Below, piece after piece: positions 8,359 through 32,145 of a stretch of DNA of 32,216 nt (its first letter is position 1; every line of letters begins with the position of its first letter). Source of the DNA: Gemmatimonadaceae bacterium (GTDB lineage: Bacteria > Gemmatimonadota > Gemmatimonadetes > Gemmatimonadales > Gemmatimonadaceae); NCBI GenBank assembly GCA_019752115.1, contig JAIEMN010000078.1, positions 1 through 32,216 of the forward strand, in the 5' to 3' direction. The notes below the pieces were generated by a model. The model had not been told where the DNA came from, made no database searches, and was given only the letters and a program-made list of their open reading frames with translations. Both the position numbers and the translations under genes were made by a program.

Positions 8359-9885
8359 ATGACCACCACCATCACCCAAGCCGATTTCATCCAGTCCATC
8401 GCGGACGCGCTCCAGCACATCTCGTACTACCACCCGCTGGATTACATCCACGCGCTGGCCGACGCGTACGAGAAGGAGCAGAGCCCGGCAGCGAAGGACG
8501 CCATCGCCCAGATCCTCACCAACTCGCGCATGTGCGCGGAGGGGCACCGCCCGATCTGCCAGGATACCGGCAGCGTGGTCGTGTTCCTCAAGGTCGGCAT
8601 GAACGTGCGCTGGGATGCCACCCTGAGCATCCAGGAGATGGTCGACGAGGGCGTGCGCCGCGCCTACCTGCTCCCCGACAACGTGCTGCGCGCAAGCATC
8701 GTGAGCGACCCGGCTTTTGGTCGCAAAAACACGCGCGACAACACGCCGGCGGTGGTGCACGTGGAGCTCGTGCCGGGTGACCATGTGGAGGTCAAGCTCG
8801 GCGCCAAGGGCGGTGGCTCGGAGAACAAGAGCAAGTTCGCCATGCTCAACCCCAGCGACAGCATCGTGGACTGGGTGCTCAAGACGGTGCCGCTGATGGG
8901 CGCCGGCTGGTGCCCGCCGGGGATGCTCGGCATCGGCATCGGTGGCAGCGCCGAGAAGGCGATGCTCATGGCGAAGGAATCGCTCATGGAGCACATCGAC
9001 ATGGCGCAGCTCAAGCAGCGCGGCCCGCAGAACAAGATCGAGGAGCTGCGCATCGAGCTGTGCGACAAGATCAACGCCCTCGGCATTGGTGCGCAGGGGC
9101 TCGGTGGGCTCTCCACCGTGCTCGATGTGAAGATCTGGGATTATCCCACGCACGCGGCCAGCAAGCCCATCGCCATGATCCCCAACTGCGCGGCCACGCG
9201 GCATGCGCACTTCACGCTCGATGGCACGGGCGTGGCGCAGCTGCCGGTACCCAAGCTGAGCGACTGGCCGGCGGTGACGTGGCGCCCCGATGTGAACGCG
9301 AAGCGGGTGGATCTCAACACGCTCACCCCTGAGATCGTGGCGACCTGGAAGGCGGGCGATCGGCTCCTGCTCAACGGCAAGATGCTGACTGGCCGCGATG
9401 CGGCGCACAAGCGCATCGCCGATCTCTTCGCGAGCGGCGAGGGGCTCCCGGCGGGTGTGGACTTCACCAACCGCGTGATCTACTACGTGGGCCCGGTCGA
9501 TCCCGTGCGCGACGAGGCCGTCGGCCCGGCCGGCCCAACGACGGCCACGCGCATGGACAAGTTCACCGAGATGATGCTCGCCAAGACGGGGCTCATCGCC
9601 ATGGTGGGCAAGGCCGAGCGCGGTCCGGCCGGGCTCGAAGCCATCCGCAAGCACAAGGCGGCGTATCTCATGGCGGTGGGCGGCGCGGCGTATCTCGTGT
9701 CGAAGGCGATCCGCTCGTCGCGCGTCGTCGCCTTCGCCGACCTCGGCATGGAAGCGATCTACGAGTTCGATGTGGAGGACATGCCGGTCACGGTCGCGGT
9801 GGACGCGACGGGCGACAACGTGCACGAGACGGGACCAGCGGTGTGGAAGGACAAGATCGCGAAGGGGCTGCCGATTCTGGCGTAG
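8359..9885 (+). CDS. fumA: Class I (iron-sulfur) fumarate hydratase
   Basis: Interconverts fumarate and L-malate in the TCA cycle in the cytoplasm. At 508 residues it is the single-chain class I type, with an N-terminal alpha domain and a C-terminal beta domain. Three cysteines fit the [4Fe-4S] ligands: Cys67 in GHRPICQDTG, Cys185 in GWCPPGMLGIGIGG and Cys276 in IPNCAATRH. Their spacing (118 and 91) is close to that I recall for characterised class I enzymes. The C-terminal half contains LTGRDAAHKR and IYYVGPVDP, as expected for the beta domain. The ATG at 8359 lacks a clear ribosome-binding site, but the protein starts sensibly there. Class I enzymes are usually sensitive to oxygen and superoxide, worth noting in an organism that otherwise looks aerobic. 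L(+)-tartrate dehydratase is the main alternative, but the single-chain length argues for fumarase. Confidence 0.93.
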   Translation: MTTTITQADFIQSIADALQHISYYHPLDYIHALADAYEKEQSPAAKDAIAQILTNSRMCAEGHRPICQDTGSVVVFLKVGMNVRWDATLSIQEMVDEGVRRAYLLPDNVLRASIVSDPAFGRKNTRDNTPAVVHVELVPGDHVEVKLGAKGGGSENKSKFAMLNPSDSIVDWVLKTVPLMGAGWCPPGMLGIGIGGSAEKAMLMAKESLMEHIDMAQLKQRGPQNKIEELRIELCDKINALGIGAQGLGGLSTVLDVKIWDYPTHAASKPIAMIPNCAATRHAHFTLDGTGVAQLPVPKLSDWPAVTWRPDVNAKRVDLNTLTPEIVATWKAGDRLLLNGKMLTGRDAAHKRIADLFASGEGLPAGVDFTNRVIYYVGPVDPVRDEAVGPAGPTTATRMDKFTEMMLAKTGLIAMVGKAERGPAGLEAIRKHKAAYLMAVGGAAYLVSKAIRSSRVVAFADLGMEAIYEFDVEDMPVTVAVDATGDNVHETGPAVWKDKIAKGLPILA

Positions 9886-9908: not shown

Positions 9909-9986
9909 GCCACGCATTGCACGGAAACGCACGGTGGATTGTCGTTCGCTCGACATTCCACCGTGCGTTTCCGCGTGATCCGTGGC
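9909..9986. repeat. 78-nt near-perfect hairpin
   Basis: The arms 9922-9938 and 9957-9973 are a perfect 17-bp inverted repeat (ending in GGTGGA / TCCACC). After one mismatch, five more pairs (9940-9944 with 9951-9955) close a six-base TTCGCT loop. Outside, pairing resumes with a few mismatches or wobbles to GCCACG (9909-9914) and CGTGGC (9981-9986). T-rich runs flank it (9902-9908 and 9989-9994). It could act as a bidirectional terminator after the fumarase gene and the convergent GxxExxY gene, or be part of the CCACGGA-type repeat that abuts it. Confidence 0.8.
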
Positions 9987-17896: not shown

Positions 17897-18007
17897 AACC
17901 CCTCAGGCATCAGGGGGGAGGAAAAGAGGGAGTGGGCATCAGGACCGCGGTTCATGCAGTCCTGATGCCCACTCCCTTTCGTCCTCCCCCCTGACGCCTA
18001 AGGGGTT
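17897..18007. repeat. Long hairpin repeat, copy 1 (111 nt)
   Basis: Perfect 19-bp arms 17927-17945 / 17959-17977 enclose a 13-nt loop. Perfect 13-bp arms 17910-17922 / 17982-17994 follow outside a small internal loop, and 17897-17909 / 17995-18007 pair with two mismatches. It lies between convergent genes (15 nt after the peptidase stop, 38 nt from the MetX-like stop), so it could terminate both. The minus-strand flank reads GAGATGTGAGG (18018-18008). Beyond it is a tandem TCTCGCG heptamer, three copies at 18015-18035. Confidence 0.9.
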
Positions 18008-18044
18008 CCTCACATCTCGCGTCTCGCGTCTCGCGTCGCACATC

Positions 18045-19115
18045 TCACTTCAGAAACGCCGCAATCTCTCGATTCAGAAACGCCGCATCCCCCGGATTAC
18101 TCGCCGCCCCCGCCGTATGCCCCCACAGCGACGGAATGGGTCGCAGCGTCACCGTCCGCATGAATGACGCCTCGTACCGCGCGTCGCCCACCGGGAAATA
18201 CAGATCCGTCTCCGACGGCATATACAGAAACGGCACCTGAATGGATCGCAGCGCCTTCTCCGTATCACCGCCAAAGCCCGGCGTCGTGCCGACGTCGTGT
18301 TGCTCCCACGTGCGGGCCTGCAGGATGTAATCGTTCGCATCGGCGCTGAAGCGCGTGCGAAACGAGGCCATGTACTCCGCGAGCGTCGTGCCCGGCTTCG
18401 CGACGGTCTTCCACAGCTCCTTGCGCCACCACTCCTGCGAGTAGAGCCACGCCGCCCACACCTGGCCGAATGCGGCGAGCCCTTGCTTGGGCGGCGCCGT
18501 GTAGTCGCCGTTGTGAAACGCCGAGTCGGTCGTGAGTGCGGCGATCTGCCCTTCGAGGCGCATGATGCCGTGGCCGTAGGTGCGCGCCGTGCCGCTCGTC
18601 GCCACAATGCGATCAGCGAAGGTGGGATAGCGCACCGCCCACTGAAACGCCTGCTGGGCGCCCATGGAAAAGCCGATGATCGCCTTGAGGTGCGTGATCC
18701 CGAACTGCTTGGTGAGCAGCTGGTGCACCGCTTCCACATTGTCGCGAATGGTGGTGACCGGAAAGCGCGGCCCGTGAAGGGGCTCCGGCGTGTTGCTCGG
18801 CGACGACGAGCGCCCATTGCCGAACAGCTCGGTGGCCACGATGAACACCTGCGTGGTATCGAGCGCCTTGCCGGCGCCAATGATCCACTCATAGCCACGC
18901 GAGTTCGCCATGTAATGCGAGGGCACCAGAATGGCGTTGTCGCGCGCGGCGTTCAGATGGCCATAAGTCCCGTAGACGACGCGCGCCTCGGGGAGCACGA
19001 CGCCGCTTTCGGTCTTGAAATTGGCGATCGTGAACGCCGGCGGTGGCGATTGCGCAGGGAGGGCGGGGGCGGCGACGGCGAGCGCCGCGGCGAAAAACCG
19101 GCGAAGTGTAGGCAT
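18045..19115 (-). CDS. Secreted alpha/beta hydrolase of the homoserine O-acetyltransferase (MetX)-like family
   Basis: A 356-residue protein with a signal peptide (MPTLRRFFAAALAVAAPALPAQ). The fold follows MetX: FKTESGVVLPEARVVYGTYG, an ATELFGNGRSSSPSNTP segment, then nucleophile Ser150 in IIGFSMGAQQAFQWA, Asp304 in SETDLYFP and His333 in WGHTAGA. A true MetX works in the cytoplasm on homoserine, so the export signal suggests a different job such as an envelope hydrolase or acyltransferase. It begins 41 nt after the kinase-TPR gene on the same strand and is probably co-transcribed with it. The triad assignment is from sequence pattern; the substrate is unknown. Confidence 0.87.
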   Translation of the reverse strand: MPTLRRFFAAALAVAAPALPAQSPPPAFTIANFKTESGVVLPEARVVYGTYGHLNAARDNAILVPSHYMANSRGYEWIIGAGKALDTTQVFIVATELFGNGRSSSPSNTPEPLHGPRFPVTTIRDNVEAVHQLLTKQFGITHLKAIIGFSMGAQQAFQWAVRYPTFADRIVATSGTARTYGHGIMRLEGQIAALTTDSAFHNGDYTAPPKQGLAAFGQVWAAWLYSQEWWRKELWKTVAKPGTTLAEYMASFRTRFSADANDYILQARTWEQHDVGTTPGFGGDTEKALRSIQVPFLYMPSETDLYFPVGDARYEASFMRTVTLRPIPSLWGHTAGAASNPGDAAFLNREIAAFLK

Positions 19116-19156
19116 ACTCGACCAATCCCTGCCCCCGCCGGCGGGTTCCGCCAGCC

Positions 19157-21841
19157 CTACCGTTTCGCCAGGCGGTCGAAGCGGGGATTGCCGTACAGCG
19201 GCTTGAACGTCGGATCGATCCGCAAATAGGCCGGAGTCACGTCTGAAGCCGGTGACGTGAGCAGCGGCTCCAGCAGATCGAGCGCGCGATTGTACTCGCC
19301 ACTCTGGATCAGGATACGCGCCACCTGAAAGTGCACGTACGGCGTGAGCGAGACGTCGTTCGTGGTCTCGCGCAAAGCCAGCGACTTCTCGGCTTCGGCA
19401 ATCGCGTCGGCCTTGCGCCCGGCCAACGCCAGCGCGCGCCCGCGCAGTTCATGCAGTTGCGCACGTTCCGGGAAATCACGCAGCTGCGCGTCAAAGAACA
19501 CCAGTGCCGAATCGCCATAAGCCCGACCCTTGGCCGTATCGCCCAGCAGCCGCCACGTATGGCCGATCTTGAGCCCCCAGTGGCCTTTGTCTCCGCCAAA
19601 GTCGGCGACGCTGAACCTGATGATGCGCGGCCACAGCGCCGGCGGCAGCGCCCACATGGTCTCCTGATACAGCGCAAAACGCACGCACAGGGCATTCGTA
19701 TCAACGATCTTGAGTCGCTCGTTCACCAGCGCCTGCACCGAATCGAGCTGCCCGAGACTCAGGTAGGCGAACGCCTTCCCCTGAATGATGCCGAGATTCT
19801 GCGGCGCCAGCGCCAGGGCCGTGTTCCACGCCTTGAGCTCCTCCGCGTAGCGCCGCGTATCGTGATAGGCACTCGCCAGCCGTCGCCACGCGTTGATCGA
19901 TCGCGGGTCCAATTCGGTGGCCTTTCGGGCATGGGCGATGGCATCCTCCCACTTGCCCAGCGTGCGATCGACACCGACGAGCACCGACACCGCTTCGGCG
20001 TCGTTGGGATTTCGCGCCACGAGCGCGAGATAGTCCTGCTGGGCGCCCTGGTAATCGAGATCGATGTTGAGCTTGATGGCCGCCGAAGCCAGCAGCGCCT
20101 CGCGGCGTCCCGGTGCGAGCTTCTCCACTTGCGCTGCCGCAAAGCGGGCACGGTCCACGATCGCCTTGGTCGGTCCGGTCGACGCAATCGAGGCATTCGC
20201 GCGCGCCACGGCCGCCCACGCGCGCACGAACGCCGGATCGAGCGCCACCGCCCGATCGTAGTCTTCGAGCGCCTTGACCAGCGTCGGGCTGTCATTCGTC
20301 GCCATGCCGTTGCTGACCTGCTCGCCCTTCAGGAACGCATCGTACGCATCGACGTTACCCGACATCGCCTCGCCCGCCTTGGCACGACCGGCTGCGCCCA
20401 ACGCGACGTCGAGCTGCTCGGCCACCCGAGTGGCGATGGAGTTCTGCACCGCGAAGACATCCGTCATGACGGTGTCGTACGGCTGGCTCCACTTCGTGTC
20501 TTCGTGCTCGACTTCGATGAGTTCGGGGATCACGCGCACGCGGCTGCGGTCGCCGTCCTTCATCCAGCGCACGGTGCCGGTGAGGATGTACTGCACCCCG
20601 AGCTCAGCGCCGATCTCGTGTGGCTTCTTGCCGGACTTCTTGTACTGGGAGCTGCTCGCCCGTGCCGTGACGCGAATGCCGCGAATAGCGGACAGCTGCG
20701 TGCGCACTTCGTCGGTCATGCCGTCCGCGAAGTACTCGTCGTCGGCGCGACCAGCGTTTTCGAACGGCAGCACGGCGATACGCTGCTCCCCCGTATCGGC
20801 GGGTACGCTTCCCCGCTTCGCCCACCACACCCCGCCAAGAAGCGCCATCAGACCGACCAATGCGCCAACCAGCCACGGCGCCCGGCTTCTGGCGCGTGGC
20901 GCGGACGCGTCGACCGCTGTCGCGGTCGCTGACATCGCACCCGTTGACGCCGTGGTCGATGCGGCCACCGGCGCCACGGTCGACGGTACATGCATCGCGC
21001 CCGTCGTGCGCTCCCCCTGATCGAGCATCTGCGCGAACTCGCCGAGCGTGGCCGGTCGATCCGCCTGAATCTTGGCCATACCCAGCTCGATCGCGCGGGC
21101 AACCCCGGGCGGCACCGTCGGGCGCGACTGCATGATCGGGCGCGGGTTCTCAGTCACCGCCCGCGCCATGATCGCCACCGGGCTGGGTCCCGTGAACGGC
21201 GGCTCGCCAGCGAGCATTTCGTACAGCACACACGCCAGCGAATAGCAATCGGTGCGTGCGTCGAGTGTACCGTCACCCGTAGCCTGCTCGGGGCTCATGT
21301 ACGCCGGTGTGCCGACGGCCATACCGGCGGTGGTGATCCCTGCCTCGCTCGTATTCAGCGCCCGCGCGATGCCAAAGTCCGCCAGCATCGCTTGCCCATC
21401 GATCAGCAGGATGTTGTCGGGTTTGATGTCCCGATGAATGACCTGATGCCGATGTGCATAGTCGAGCGCCAGCGCGATCTCGCGGGTGATACGCACCGCG
21501 TCGGCCACCGGCAGCTGGGTTTCCCGCTGCAGCCGATCACGCAACGACTCGCCTTCGACGTACGGCATCGTGAACCAGCACACGTCACCGGTGGCACCGC
21601 TGTCGTACACCCCGAGAATGTGCGGATGCTGCAACCGCGCCGCGAGCCGGATCTCGCGTTGAAAGCGTTCCGCGCCGAGCGACGCGGAAAGCTCGGGGTT
21701 CAACACCTTGAGCGCGACCGGTCGATCATGCTGCAGATCACGCGCGAGATACACCGTGGCCATGCCCCCGCGACCGAGCACGCGGTCGATGACGTAACGC
21801 CCGTCGAGGGCTTGGCGGAGCGCGTCCAGCGGATCGGTCAT
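19157..21841 (-). CDS. Membrane-anchored Ser/Thr protein kinase with TolB_N-like and TPR domains
   Basis: An 894-residue eukaryotic-type kinase. Kinase domain about 16-275: GRGGMATVYLA, Lys45 in VALKVL, HRDIKPDN with Asp138, DFG with Asp155, and GTPAYMSPEQ. An Ala/Thr-rich linker precedes one membrane helix at about 322-341 (PWLVGALVGLMALLGGVWW). Residues about 353-480 match the TolB_N/FlgO-like region seen in many kinases and adenylate cyclases (IAVLPFENAG, YFADGMTDEVRTQLS, YILTGTVRW). The remainder is TPR-like (YDRAVALDPAFVRAWAAVARAN, ARKATELDPRSINAWRRLASAYHDTRRYAEE). Topology implies an outside helical-repeat sensor linked to an inside kinase. Hairpin copy 2 lies 42 nt before its start codon, so that repeat may sit in its promoter or leader. 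The MetX-like gene follows downstream. Confidence 0.92.
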   Translation of the reverse strand: MTDPLDALRQALDGRYVIDRVLGRGGMATVYLARDLQHDRPVALKVLNPELSASLGAERFQREIRLAARLQHPHILGVYDSGATGDVCWFTMPYVEGESLRDRLQRETQLPVADAVRITREIALALDYAHRHQVIHRDIKPDNILLIDGQAMLADFGIARALNTSEAGITTAGMAVGTPAYMSPEQATGDGTLDARTDCYSLACVLYEMLAGEPPFTGPSPVAIMARAVTENPRPIMQSRPTVPPGVARAIELGMAKIQADRPATLGEFAQMLDQGERTTGAMHVPSTVAPVAASTTASTGAMSATATAVDASAPRARSRAPWLVGALVGLMALLGGVWWAKRGSVPADTGEQRIAVLPFENAGRADDEYFADGMTDEVRTQLSAIRGIRVTARASSSQYKKSGKKPHEIGAELGVQYILTGTVRWMKDGDRSRVRVIPELIEVEHEDTKWSQPYDTVMTDVFAVQNSIATRVAEQLDVALGAAGRAKAGEAMSGNVDAYDAFLKGEQVSNGMATNDSPTLVKALEDYDRAVALDPAFVRAWAAVARANASIASTGPTKAIVDRARFAAAQVEKLAPGRREALLASAAIKLNIDLDYQGAQQDYLALVARNPNDAEAVSVLVGVDRTLGKWEDAIAHARKATELDPRSINAWRRLASAYHDTRRYAEELKAWNTALALAPQNLGIIQGKAFAYLSLGQLDSVQALVNERLKIVDTNALCVRFALYQETMWALPPALWPRIIRFSVADFGGDKGHWGLKIGHTWRLLGDTAKGRAYGDSALVFFDAQLRDFPERAQLHELRGRALALAGRKADAIAEAEKSLALRETTNDVSLTPYVHFQVARILIQSGEYNRALDLLEPLLTSPASDVTPAYLRIDPTFKPLYGNPRFDRLAKR

Positions 21842-21883
21842 GGCGTGAGTATAGCGCGAGGGGGCGGGAGGCGGAGGGCCGAG

Positions 21884-21994
21884 AACCCCTCAGGCATCCG
21901 GGGGGAGGACAAAAGGAAGTGGGCATCGGGACTGCACGAATCGCGGTCCTGATGCCCACTCCCTTTTCACCTCCCCCCTGATACCTGAGGGGTT
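21884..21994. repeat. Long hairpin repeat, copy 2 (111 nt)
   Basis: Same length and order of stems as copy 1. The outer 25 positions of each arm pair at 23, and the inner arms (GAAGTGGGCATC and GATGCCCACTCC) pair with a few mismatches. The right boundary is 42 nt beyond the DUF4397 stop codon; the minus-strand flank reads GAGACATGAGG (22005-21995). On the other side the kinase start is 42 nt away. Confidence 0.9.
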
Positions 21995-22035
21995 CCTCAT
22001 GTCTCACGACACGTACGACTCACCACCCTCGCGTC

Positions 22036-22725
22036 TCACAACACCTCGAGCCGCACCCCGCCCCCCGGCGCATCCAGGATGACGACCGTCCGCTTCCCCC
22101 CACTCCCCAGCGTCACCGTCACCCGCACCACACTCGTCCCCCATCCCGTGGCGTCGGTGGGCGTCTGCCAGACGCGCACCTCCCAGTTGCCCACCGTGCT
22201 TTGGTAGAACGGGGCGCTGAGGCTCGTGATGCTCGTCTGATAGGTGAAGGGAAACTGCCAGCGCACCGGCGTCGCGAAATCGGGCTGGGTGCGATAGACC
22301 TGCAGTTCACCGGCGTTGGCCGCGAGATGCAACACGCGCAGCTTCGTCGCCCCCGCTGGCACCACACTGTTGGTGTCGTCGAGCGCCGTCGTCGTCAGCG
22401 CGCCCGATGCCGAGCGAATGCCGGCGATCGTCGGGAGCGCCGCAAACGCCGCCGTCACCGACTGCGCGGCCGTGGTGGTGGTCCCACTCCGCAGCGCGAC
22501 GGCATGGGCGCCGTCGCTCACCGCCACCTGGGCCACGGTCCCGGCGGCAATGCCCAGCGCCACCGGACTCCCATCGACCACCAGATCGACCGGGGACGGA
22601 AACGCGTTGATCACGCGTAGCTGCGACGGCCCCGGCTGAATGCGGAGCGGGCTGTCACTGCCACAGGCAGCGAGCGAGATGATCGCCACACCGGCGACCG
22701 CGAACCATCGAAGAGGACGACGCAT
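22036..22725 (-). CDS. DUF4397-domain lipoprotein
   Basis: A 229-residue protein with a lipoprotein signal (SLAACGSD, Cys21). The mature part has two related beta-rich halves, the first beginning LRVINAFPSPVDLVVDGSPV and the second LRVLHLAANAGELQVYRT, which is the hallmark of DUF4397 (immunoglobulin-like folds that decorate the cell surface). Function of the family is unknown. It follows the PF04020 membrane protein gene by 22 nt on the same strand, so the three genes from 23597 to 22036 may form an operon ending at hairpin copy 2. Confidence 0.87.
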   Translation of the reverse strand: MRRPLRWFAVAGVAIISLAACGSDSPLRIQPGPSQLRVINAFPSPVDLVVDGSPVALGIAAGTVAQVAVSDGAHAVALRSGTTTTAAQSVTAAFAALPTIAGIRSASGALTTTALDDTNSVVPAGATKLRVLHLAANAGELQVYRTQPDFATPVRWQFPFTYQTSITSLSAPFYQSTVGNWEVRVWQTPTDATGWGTSVVRVTVTLGSGGKRTVVILDAPGGGVRLEVL

Positions 22726-22747
22726 GATACGAAGCCTAACGGATCGC

Positions 22748-23107
22748 TCAGTCGTCGTCCTTATCCGGAATCAGCAAACCCAGAATAGCGCCCACGACAC
22801 TCACCAGAATCGAGCCCAGCAGTGCCGGCACGAAGCCGCGCACACCAAAGCCGTACCCGGCGGCGAGCTTGGCCGTAAGCAGCAGCATCCCCGCATTGAT
22901 CACGAGGGCAAAGAGCCCCAGCGTGAGCACCGTGATCGGGAACGCGAAGAGCTTCAGCACCGGCTTGATCAGCACATTCACCGTGCCAAAAATGAGCGCC
23001 ACCACCAGAAGCCCTGGCAGCGTGCCCGTGTAGCGGATGCCGTCGATGTACTGCGCGGCGCACCAGAGCGCGACCGCATTGATGAGCAGCTTGAGGAGGA
23101 GGCGCAT
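22748..23107 (-). CDS. PF04020 (phage holin family 4 / YvlD-like) membrane protein
   Basis: A 119-residue integral membrane protein with about four hydrophobic helices (near 4-22, 30-50, 56-80 and 90-113). The sequence LLKLLINAVALWCAAQYIDGI at the start and GTVNVLIKPVLKLFAFPITVLTLGLFALVINAGMLLL in two stretches are typical of the PF04020 family. Despite the family name these are common chromosomal proteins in non-phage settings and probably act in envelope maintenance. The acidic C-terminus PDKDDD is normal. It lies 16 nt after the DUF2147 gene and 22 nt before the DUF4397 gene, all on the minus strand. Confidence 0.9.
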   Translation of the reverse strand: MRLLLKLLINAVALWCAAQYIDGIRYTGTLPGLLVVALIFGTVNVLIKPVLKLFAFPITVLTLGLFALVINAGMLLLTAKLAAGYGFGVRGFVPALLGSILVSVVGAILGLLIPDKDDD

Positions 23108-23123
23108 GCCTCAACCTACGGCG

Positions 23124-23597
23124 TCACTCGCCGGCGCGTTTCCAGACCTGCGTGCGTCCCAGCATCGCGACCCCCAAAAAGCCGCGCATCTTGAGTGACT
23201 TGCCGTCTCTGGCCACCTCGACCTTGGCCTTGTAGACCTTGCCCACATCGGGGTCGAGCACCTCGCCGCCGGTCCAGAGCAGCGGGTTCTCGCGATCGCG
23301 CCGCAGACCCGTCAGAATGGCCATGCCGATCAGCGGCTGATTGTGGCGTGCGCCGGGGCATTTGTCGCACAGCTTGTCCCCTTCTTCGCCCGGGACGAGC
23401 GACCGGACCACCGTGCCCGTGAGCTGATCGCCGGCGACCGAGATGCGAATCTCCGCGCGCGGCTTCCCCGTGGCGTCATCGATGGTGTGCCAGAGCCCGG
23501 CGGGCGACGACGACACCGCCTGCGCCGAGAGGCGCAGAGGCAGAAACGCCACCAGCACGGCGGCAGCGCGCAGGGCGCCGGAAATTCGGAGGGACAT
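23124..23597 (-). CDS. Secreted DUF2147 protein
   Basis: A 157-residue protein with a signal peptide (MSLRISGALRAAAVLVAFLPLRLSAQ). The mature part matches DUF2147: GLWHTIDDATGKPRAEIRIS, a LCDKCPGARHNQPLIGM segment, WTGGEVLDPDVGKVYKAKV and MRGFLGVAMLGRTQVWKR. The family is a periplasmic beta-barrel-like fold of unknown function. A CDKC pair may bind metal or form a disulfide. I chose the ATG at 23597; a GTG two codons upstream at 23603 is the longer alternative. It is first in a probable three-gene minus-strand operon. Confidence 0.87.
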   Translation of the reverse strand: MSLRISGALRAAAVLVAFLPLRLSAQAVSSSPAGLWHTIDDATGKPRAEIRISVAGDQLTGTVVRSLVPGEEGDKLCDKCPGARHNQPLIGMAILTGLRRDRENPLLWTGGEVLDPDVGKVYKAKVEVARDGKSLKMRGFLGVAMLGRTQVWKRAGE

Positions 23598-23706
23598 GTT
23601 CACACGCTGAAGGACACCACCCGACCGGGTGACCGATGGAGCGACCGGAAGAAGCTACCGCGCCGCCCCCACGGGAATAAACCGTTTCCCCGCATTAAGT
23701 TCGCGC

Positions 23707-24975
23707 ATGACGCGATTTTGGATGCTCCTGCTGGCCGCGGCGGCCCGGCTCGCCCCGACATCGGCCGCCGCGCAACCGGCCGCGCCCGTCGCTGACTCGG
23801 CGCTGGTGGTCCCGGCCTACACCGCCTATCTCCACCCGGACGCCGACGGCGCGCCCATCTCGCCACGGCGGCCGGTCGCCCCCTTTACCCAGCCCGGCCG
23901 CGCGCTCCAATGGTACGCGCTCCTGCGGCACCCCGGCGACCTGCAGCTGCAGGTCGCGACTCACGGCGCCTCCGGCCGCTGGCAAATCACCGTGGGGCGC
24001 GATACGCGCACCGGTCGCATCAGCGCCACGCGTGGCGACACGACGGTCATCGACTTTGGCACCGTGACCATCCGCGACACCGGCTACGTGGCAATCGTGC
24101 TCACCGCCGCCGCCCCCACGCCCGCGAGCATCGACGCGCTCCTCCTGCGCGGCCCAGCCGCCGCCGACGCGCACGCCAACCGCGAGCCGCGTCGCAACGC
24201 CGCCAGCGTGCACCTGCGCTATCCCACCGACAGCACGTGGCCCATCACCGGCTTCTACAGCGAAGTCACCGCCGTCGACGATCCGGTGACGACCTACTAC
24301 ATGGCCACCGGCTTCGCGCGCGGCTACTTCGGCATGCAAGTGAACTCGCCCACCGAACGCCGCATCATCTTCTCGGTGTGGGACGCCGCCGAAGGGCAGA
24401 CGGCAATGAATCGCAGCACCGTCGCCGAAGAGAACCGCACGTCGCTACTCGGCAAGGGCGAGGGCGTGGTGGCCGAAGCGTTCGGCAACGAAGGCACCGG
24501 CGGCCACTCGCATCTCGTCTACCCGTGGAAAACGGGGAGTGTGCAGCGCTTCTTCGTCACCGCGAAGCCGGTGGGCACCGCCACGGAGTATCGTGGCTAT
24601 TGGTATCACCCCGAACGGCAGCAGTGGATGCTGATTGCCGGCTTCCGCGCGCCCAAGGACGGCGGGTATCTGCGGCGATTGTACGCGTTCAGCGAAAACT
24701 TCGGCGGCTCGACGGGCGATCTGCGGCGGAAGGCGCGCTATGGCAATCAGTGGGTGCAGCTGGCCGATGGCTCATGGCGCGCGCTCACGCAGGCGACGTT
24801 TACACATGATCCGACGGGGAAGGAGGCGCGGCTCGACCGCTGGGCAGGAGTGGAGAATGGGCAGTTCTTCTTGAGCCACGGGGGGTTTGTGGCGGGGTTC
24901 GCACCGGCGGGGACGATGCTGACGCGGCCAGCGGGTGGAGCGCCGCCGACAATTGAGGTGCCGCCGGGAGTCTGA
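23707..24975 (+). CDS. Secreted DUF5077-DUF3472 protein
   Basis: A 422-residue exported protein (signal MTRFWMLLLAAAARLAPTSAAAQ). An N-terminal domain of about 120 residues (AYTAYLHPDADGAPI, then ITVGRDTRTGRISATRGDT and GYVAIVLTA) fits DUF5077. The following 250 residues fit DUF3472: YYMATGFARGYFGMQVNSPTERRIIFSVWD, GEGVVAEAFGNEGTGGHSHLVYPWKTG, YRGYWYHPERQQWMLIAGFRAP and FSENFGG. Such proteins often sit in carbohydrate-related gene sets and are thought to bind or process glycans, but no activity is established to my knowledge. Start at 23707 is chosen for the signal peptide; the frame opens 26 codons earlier. It converges on the sialidase-like gene, with hairpin copy 3 between them. Confidence 0.87.
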   Translation: MTRFWMLLLAAAARLAPTSAAAQPAAPVADSALVVPAYTAYLHPDADGAPISPRRPVAPFTQPGRALQWYALLRHPGDLQLQVATHGASGRWQITVGRDTRTGRISATRGDTTVIDFGTVTIRDTGYVAIVLTAAAPTPASIDALLLRGPAAADAHANREPRRNAASVHLRYPTDSTWPITGFYSEVTAVDDPVTTYYMATGFARGYFGMQVNSPTERRIIFSVWDAAEGQTAMNRSTVAEENRTSLLGKGEGVVAEAFGNEGTGGHSHLVYPWKTGSVQRFFVTAKPVGTATEYRGYWYHPERQQWMLIAGFRAPKDGGYLRRLYAFSENFGGSTGDLRRKARYGNQWVQLADGSWRALTQATFTHDPTGKEARLDRWAGVENGQFFLSHGGFVAGFAPAGTMLTRPAGGAPPTIEVPPGV

Positions 24976-25004
24976 TGTCGGCGTGTCTGACATCGGAGTT
25001 GAGT

Positions 25005-25112
25005 AACCCCCGAGAGCTCAGGCGGAAGAATTTCAGGGAGTGGGCATCAGGACCGCAGTTGTTGTCCTGAGCACTTCCTCCTGACGTTCTTCCCCCTGAG
25101 CTCTCAGGGGTT
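25005..25112. repeat. Long hairpin repeat, copy 3 (108 nt, altered outer stem)
   Basis: The outer 26 positions of each arm pair at 24, although their sequence (AGAGCTCAGG and CCTGAGCTCT) differs from copies 1 and 2. The left core at 25035-25056 is identical over 22 nt to 17927-17948 in copy 1, while the right core is decayed. GAGT/ACTC extends pairing to 25001-25116. It sits between convergent genes, 29 nt and 35 nt from their stop codons. The minus-strand flank reads TAGACGTGAGT (25123-25113). Confidence 0.87.
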
Positions 25113-25146
25113 ACTCACGTCTAAGCCCCGTTCGCTGACCGTGGGC

Positions 25147-32071: not shown

Positions 32072-32145
32072 GCGGATGATTTTTTGTGGCCTTTGAGAAC
32101 TGAGAACCGAGCCGTGAGCACCGAGATGTGAGACCTGAGCTGTTC
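32072..32145 (+). other. Intergenic tail with degenerate TGAGA-type repeats
   Basis: After the last stop codon the plus strand reads as loosely repeated units around TGAGAAC, TGAGCAC and GAGATGTGAG (32123-32132). The last is the same motif that precedes the hairpin repeats on the minus strand. No open frame or hairpin is seen here. Confidence 0.5.

Follow-up and report, generated by a model that had tools for sequence, protein, structure and literature searches.

What are three similar hairpins of more than 100 nt doing in one short stretch of bacterial DNA, how did they come to be there, and what keeps them in place? The window studied here, i.e., the whole analysed stretch of 32,216 nucleotides, is contig 78 of a genome assembly (G000) that comprises 83 contigs and 5.17 Mb and is 97% complete. 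We found that the three elements belong to one dispersed family of palindromic repeats, which we designate family A, and that this family is biased to the 3' ends of genes. The reading we prefer, with a probability a little short of one half (about 0.47), is that family A is an ERIC/REP-like dispersed palindromic repeat and, as we infer, is kept at gene 3' ends probably as an RNA hairpin that ends or protects transcripts.

The initial annotation of the window described three hairpins, each folding on itself, and this description holds (Table 1). The RNA folding energies of copies 1, 2 and 3 are -98.5, -91.2 and -82.0 kcal/mol, with means of -43, -41 and -39 kcal/mol for shuffled sequences. None of the 200 dinucleotide shuffles reached the energy of a real copy. 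The corresponding z-scores, between -10 and -17, are -14.0, -13.7 and -10.5 on the plus strand and go down to -17.4 on the minus strand. Folding is also strong for single-stranded DNA. A control sequence of 432 kb, generated with a first-order Markov model, gave no hairpin with a score of at least 22, the maximum being 15. The extents first given for copies 1 and 2 stand, whereas in copy 3, placed at 25005-25112, pairing extends another 5 nt outwards at both ends. The core GTGGGCATCAGGAC proposed for all three is exact in copies 1 and 3, but the 5' arm of copy 2 has GTGGGCATCGGGAC. The loops are 7-10 nt long. Copy 2, when inverted, matches copy 1 at 89% identity.

Table 1. Features of the window discussed in the text
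Feature	Position	Strand	Description
Copy 1, subfamily A	17897..18007	.	Arms 17897-17948/17956-18007, 52 bp, 7-nt loop, 88% complementary
Copy 2, subfamily A	21884..21994	.	Arms 21883-21935/21943-21995, 52-53 bp, 87% complementary
Copy 3	25000..25117	.	Arms 25000-25053/25064-25117, 54 bp, 80% complementary
One-sided leader of copy 3, GTCTGACATCGGAGT type	24985..24999	+	Adjoins the outer stem; blastn matches run into the leader
Unrelated long hairpin, CACGGA type	9909..9986	+	23 nt past the fumarate hydratase stop, then CATTTTTT

Our gene calls place all three copies in intergenic gaps, in agreement with the earlier view that they are not coding. Convergent stops flank copy 1 (a peptidase M20/M28-like gene, stop 17881, and an alpha/beta hydrolase gene, stop side 18045) and copy 3 (a DUF3472 gene, stop 24975, and a BNR-repeat protein gene, stop side 25147). 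Copy 2 is located between tandem minus-strand genes, 40 nt past the stop of a DUF4397 gene (22036-22689) and 41 nt before the start of a Ser/Thr kinase-TPR gene (19157-21841). Degenerate 7-nt repeats (CTCGCGTCTCGCGTCTCGCGT / TGAGAACTGAGAACCGAGCCGTGAG) are also seen beside gene ends at positions 18009-18047 and 32094-32132 of the window. Such GAG-type heptamers flank many family A copies and build the arms of another hairpin family (L040:6794, L086:3765).

A search with a covariance model (R1) and a sequence-only model (R2) revealed at least 44 full-length and two partial copies, which are distributed over 22 contigs of the source genome; copy 1 scores 116.9 bits with R1. The copies are near-perfect stem-loops of 105-118 nt, and distant loci have the ~110-nt sequence in common, at 83-89% identity. 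An alignment of 21 copies (A2) resolves two subfamilies, A, which includes copies 1 and 2, and A', to which most other copies belong. Copy 3 is of a mixed type: its outer arms are A'-like and its 5' inner arm is A-like. In the alignment consensus each arm consists of three TCAGG-containing units, 14-16 nt apart. The family ends are (TGAGN)AACCCC...GGGGTT, and where CGTC is found, in some copies, it lies inside the arm only. Many copies have a leader of about TCTGACATCGGAGGTGAGT at just one of their sides, which may be either side with respect to the genes; leaders like that of copy 3 stand on one side or the other of other copies, including the copy at murB described below. The suggestion that the hairpins represent a dispersed structured intergenic element is thus backed by copy number and, as shown below, by location and covariation.

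Family A copies are seen on only about 22 of the 83 contigs (G000 contigs 2, 4, 7, 11, 19, 20, 22-26, 31, 43, 45 and others), and other hairpin families seemed less clustered in our sample. The clustering could reflect a chromosomal region or a replicon. A mixture of two genomes in the assembly was considered and rejected, as the tetranucleotide composition showed no clear split.

Among 41 genomes, blastn with copy 1 gave matches only in its own genome. R2 matches are found in each of 12 congeners (24-60 per genome, both strands counted), the best of them scoring 43-51 bits versus 66-101 bits for the own full copies. In the congener examples that we inspected the arm layout is kept and the letters differ, e.g., AACTCCCTAGGGAACAGGGGGGAGGGTATCAGGGGGCAGGGTGCAGGAAC in L206. 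Sequence comparison demonstrates in about 12 congeners a diverged superfamily with the arm layout of family A. The source genome itself probably belongs to the Gemmatimonas type; among the grounds for this assignment are the closest named relatives of the murB gene in L036, which are Gemmatimonas MAGs. Covariance-model hits outside the genus are tandem-unit hairpins of up to about 72 bits that score mainly as purine-rich hairpins. We did not count them as members because scores of 30-55 bits are attained even by unrelated hairpins within the same genome. Genomes of the same taxonomic family outside the genus have hairpins whose arms are near-exact tandem repeats, (AGGGCAGG)n or (GGACTGAAG)n, for instance in L233 (332-427 and 1507-1602) and L232 (958-1138).

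The location of the hairpins relative to genes was assessed with our own hexamer-based gene predictor, whose calls may be wrong in single cases. Long hairpins occur in 26 of 136 convergent gaps and in 26 of 833 other gaps (odds ratio 7.3, p 2e-10). Outside the regions chosen for family copies the counts are 5 of 53 and 6 of 423, respectively (odds ratio 7.2, p 0.004). Of the 22 hairpins in tandem gaps, 18 are closer to the upstream stop than to the downstream start (p 0.004), with a median of 22.5 nt past the stop and 65 nt to the next start. The family copies themselves are mostly found in convergent gaps or 0-50 nt downstream of stop codons, and the 3'-end placement entertained in the initial annotation is therefore borne out as a bias. 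A few hairpins lie in divergent gaps. The one clear case, L030, precedes a gene that we take to be lepA from its N-terminus; at least one other apparent case, L034:7566, looks like a gene-calling error.

This niche is not exclusive to family A. A survey blind to sequence, covering about 1.2 Mb of the source genome, revealed several unrelated families of 70-150 nt hairpins that share it, including AACCCACGACC..TGATCA, CGCACAGAGGCACAGAG, CCACGGATCACACGG, GAGAACCGAGAACC, CTGCGGGAAGACGT and others. They form separate sequence clusters with no evident common motif. Twelve long hairpins are present in 400 kb that were not selected for family A. In one congener (G021) the 300 kb surveyed contain no long hairpin; other congeners sampled carry some long hairpins of their own. 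A second abundant type, AACCC..TGATCA, is made of 7-nt AACCCNN units with a TGATCA centre and often abuts stop codons (L023, L027, L031, L039, L045, L048, L054, L081); at L048:15639-15726 the stem has TAA/TTA as its outermost part, which overlaps the stops called on either side. In G016 two closely similar hairpins of 120-130 nt, of the GAACGGCGTTAAGGG type, lie 0.5 kb apart (L103:6449-6577 and L103:7048-7168), which suggests local copying.

Orthologous gene ends were compared for two genes, fumarate hydratase and murB. The fumarate hydratase gene of the window (8359-9885) is conserved and served as the basis of the comparison. In the source genome it is followed by the CACGGA-type hairpin of Table 1, relatives of which are seen at L031:6909, L090:6448 and G000:C64:11080-11174. 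In other species CGGATT-, AACCC-, CACGGAT- or other hairpins are found 3' of this gene, and in six species (G011, G014, G015, G023, G024, G041) there is an ordinary terminator, GGGGCGGTCC..CGCCCC with a T-run. The murB gene of L036, named from its own sequence and the matches to it, has a family A' copy on its 3' side in the source genome. Five relatives have an unrelated CTCTGCG-type hairpin of ~100 nt at this place, and in most others the hairpin is short or absent. The half of this intergenic region that lies downstream (GTGTCGAAACGC ... CGACGTG) is alignable in almost all species while the hairpin varies; therefore the hairpin block seems to be replaceable as a unit, the upstream region of the next gene staying in place. 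At these two genes, long hairpins appear to swap at orthologous ends, the structure being kept while the sequence turns over. The orthologous ends of the genes next to copies 1 and 3 were uninformative: gene order differs, and there are few or no hairpins.

Several steps would lead to such a pattern if the preferred reading, a repeat kept as a 3'-end RNA hairpin, is correct. Copies would spread by a copying process, either transposition in trans or ectopic gene conversion. Once transcribed, the hairpin would form the transcript 3' end from either side, and copies would be kept at gene ends. It may block trimming by 3'-5' exonucleases, help termination of the Rho type or of a weak intrinsic type, and keep antisense transcription from running through between convergent genes; as a palindrome, one element could serve both strands. 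Only 1 of 38 family ends has at least 6 T in 10 nt, and only 2 of 52 ends of long convergent hairpins have at least 5 T in 8 nt. The lack of a U-tract argues against classical intrinsic termination and for probable Rho-assisted ends at which exonucleases are blocked.

The pairing itself gives a mixed picture. In the alignment 95% of cells are paired, and the covariation score is 0.25 versus at most 0.094 for slid partners (0 of 500 shuffles). Most of the covariation separates subfamilies A and A'. Within the subfamilies, 12 cells are changed on both sides, versus 42 broken cells and 20 changed on one side. By our own estimate less than one both-sided cell would be expected by chance if the arms were independent. 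The 12 cells fit either compensation or arm-to-arm correction, and shared ancestry inflates their count. Because they stand against 62 one-sided or broken cells, the maintenance of pairing is weak or the copies are young. Selection on RNA was also sought as a bias of G-U over A-C mismatches and was rejected: G-T and A-C mismatches number 21:21 in the family, and 31:26 in the sense orientation of tandem gaps, which is not significant. The copy number, the location bias, the 95% pairing with its covariation, the other families or U-tract terminators at orthologous ends, and the shared niche count for a 3'-end role; the lack of a U-tract, the uncompensated changes, the lack of an RNA-strand preference and the presence of at least one divergent-gap copy count against it.

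The latter points bear on the main rival, namely that family A is a palindromic mobile element (REPIN/ERIC/MITE-like), selfish or neutral, whose 3' bias comes from the purging of copies that hit genes or promoters. We regard it as a serious but less probable explanation. It is favoured by the species-restricted amplification, the subfamily structure, arm decay that is mostly uncompensated inside subfamilies and shows no G-U bias, the presence of a copy between divergent genes, and the gain or loss of the murB block as a unit. RAYT transposases, whose genes often lie beside REP or REPIN copies, are a common explanation for dispersed palindromic repeats, and such an enzyme had been proposed as something to look for. 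The search for PF01797 (Y1 transposase, RAYT type) gave no match in the source genome, 97% complete, and among 30 genomes Y1 genes are present in 4 of 13 carriers of the family and 4 of 17 others (p 0.70). Mobilisation by a RAYT is rejected on these grounds, and the same results speak against the selfish reading in general. So does the lack of a target-site duplication: direct repeats at 19 copies score 0.79, versus 1.04 +- 0.29 for shuffled flanks. Moreover, neutral insertion alone does not predict that, at orthologous ends, unrelated hairpins and ordinary terminators should take each other's place. A phage or plasmid origin was rejected, since a blastn search of phage and plasmid records with copy 1 gave no match. 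Loss of SbcCD as the cause of palindrome tolerance was rejected too, as an SbcD-like nuclease, with matches mostly below the curated cut-off, is found in 29 of 30 genomes with no contrast between hairpin-rich and hairpin-poor species.

The hairpins might instead originate, or be perfected, at their present sites if fold-back template switching (quasipalindrome correction) acted on short periodic repeats between genes; the likeness of the hairpins would then come from shared units and gene conversion, not from transposition. Arms are periodic (p<0.05) in 26 of 55 long hairpins, as are 6 of 100 control windows. Across 19 families over-representation is strongest for lag 7 (z 3.2), a tentative value given the 23 lags examined. 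The near-exact tandem-unit arms outside the genus, (AGGGCAGG)n, and both-sided changes within subfamilies of any type, including A-T/T-A, point in the same direction. Yet template switching leaves unexplained the sharing of ~110 nt at 83-89% identity between far-apart loci, and periodicity is not significant in most single copies of family A. As an account of this family it seems improbable.

A role at the DNA level, e.g., a putative protein or gyrase binding site or a cruciform at convergent ends, as proposed for enterobacterial BIMEs, agrees with the symmetric element lacking an RNA-strand preference, the strong convergent-gap bias and the stable folding of single-stranded DNA, but we consider it very unlikely as well, because the families that share the niche cluster separately by sequence and have no evident motif in common.

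A broader proposal is that long (about 100 nt) 3'-end palindromes are a general, sequence-independent feature of Gemmatimonas, with each species building its own families on short periodic units and the families being exchanged, at the same gene ends, with each other and with ordinary terminators. Such hairpins would form a mobile class of interchangeable 3'-end modules, and the mechanism of their formation would be new. We think this generalisation unlikely, though less so than the two preceding explanations.

Family A resembles several known systems. No named family had been recognised in the initial annotation, and Rfam has no match above the gathering score in the window; the sub-threshold hits, rejected as candidates, are almost all microRNA models that match a long hairpin far below their gathering scores. 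ERIC, or intergenic repeat units, of Enterobacteria, Yersinia and Vibrio are alike in length (about 100-140 bp) and number (tens of copies per genome or more). ERIC folds into one long stem-loop and has RNA effects in Yersinia (PMC2267715). It is ~127 bp long and located in transcribed intergenic regions; family A shows the stem-loop and the intergenic position. Compared by description, family A differs in its phylum, its near-perfect palindrome, its three-unit arms and its convergent-end bias. REPs are 20-40 bp long, carry a GTAG or CGTC tag at one end and lie mostly downstream of genes and between unidirectional or convergent genes (PMC3733652), and REPINs are RAYT-linked hairpins with compensatory changes (PMC3116915). 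The earlier label "REP/MITE-like" applies loosely: family A is, like REP/BIME and REPIN, a dispersed intergenic palindrome found downstream of genes, but it is 3-5 times longer than a REP and has no GTAG/CGTC-tagged end, no target-site duplication and no Y1/RAYT gene in the genome. Rho-independent terminators share the stable hairpin 0-50 nt past the stop codon; unlike them, family A has a stem several times longer, lacks a U-tract and is repetitive genome-wide.

Cyanobacterial heptanucleotide STRR repeats are degenerate 7-nt tandem units in intergenic DNA. As a lead, they resemble the arms of several of the other hairpin families described here; the unit of family A, however, is 14-16 nt, and STRRs are not defined as long hairpins. 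Of the stem-loop-containing sequence families, 92 in 40 genomes, two thirds have a predicted common secondary structure and are intergenic (PMC2267715). Family A belongs to the same descriptive class but is not among the named families, and the phylum is not mentioned in the text of that survey. Nor is it in the other survey papers that we searched, and a full-text search for Gemmatimonas aurantiaca with repetitive or palindromic terms found no paper. Family A is a new, untagged addition to the known class of dispersed palindromic repeats.

Thus an abundant palindromic family has spread in a genome in which no RAYT-type enzyme was found. The presence of unrelated hairpins at orthologous gene ends offers a natural test of whether such elements are parasites or working 3'-end modules, and the genus includes cultured species in which this question could be measured.
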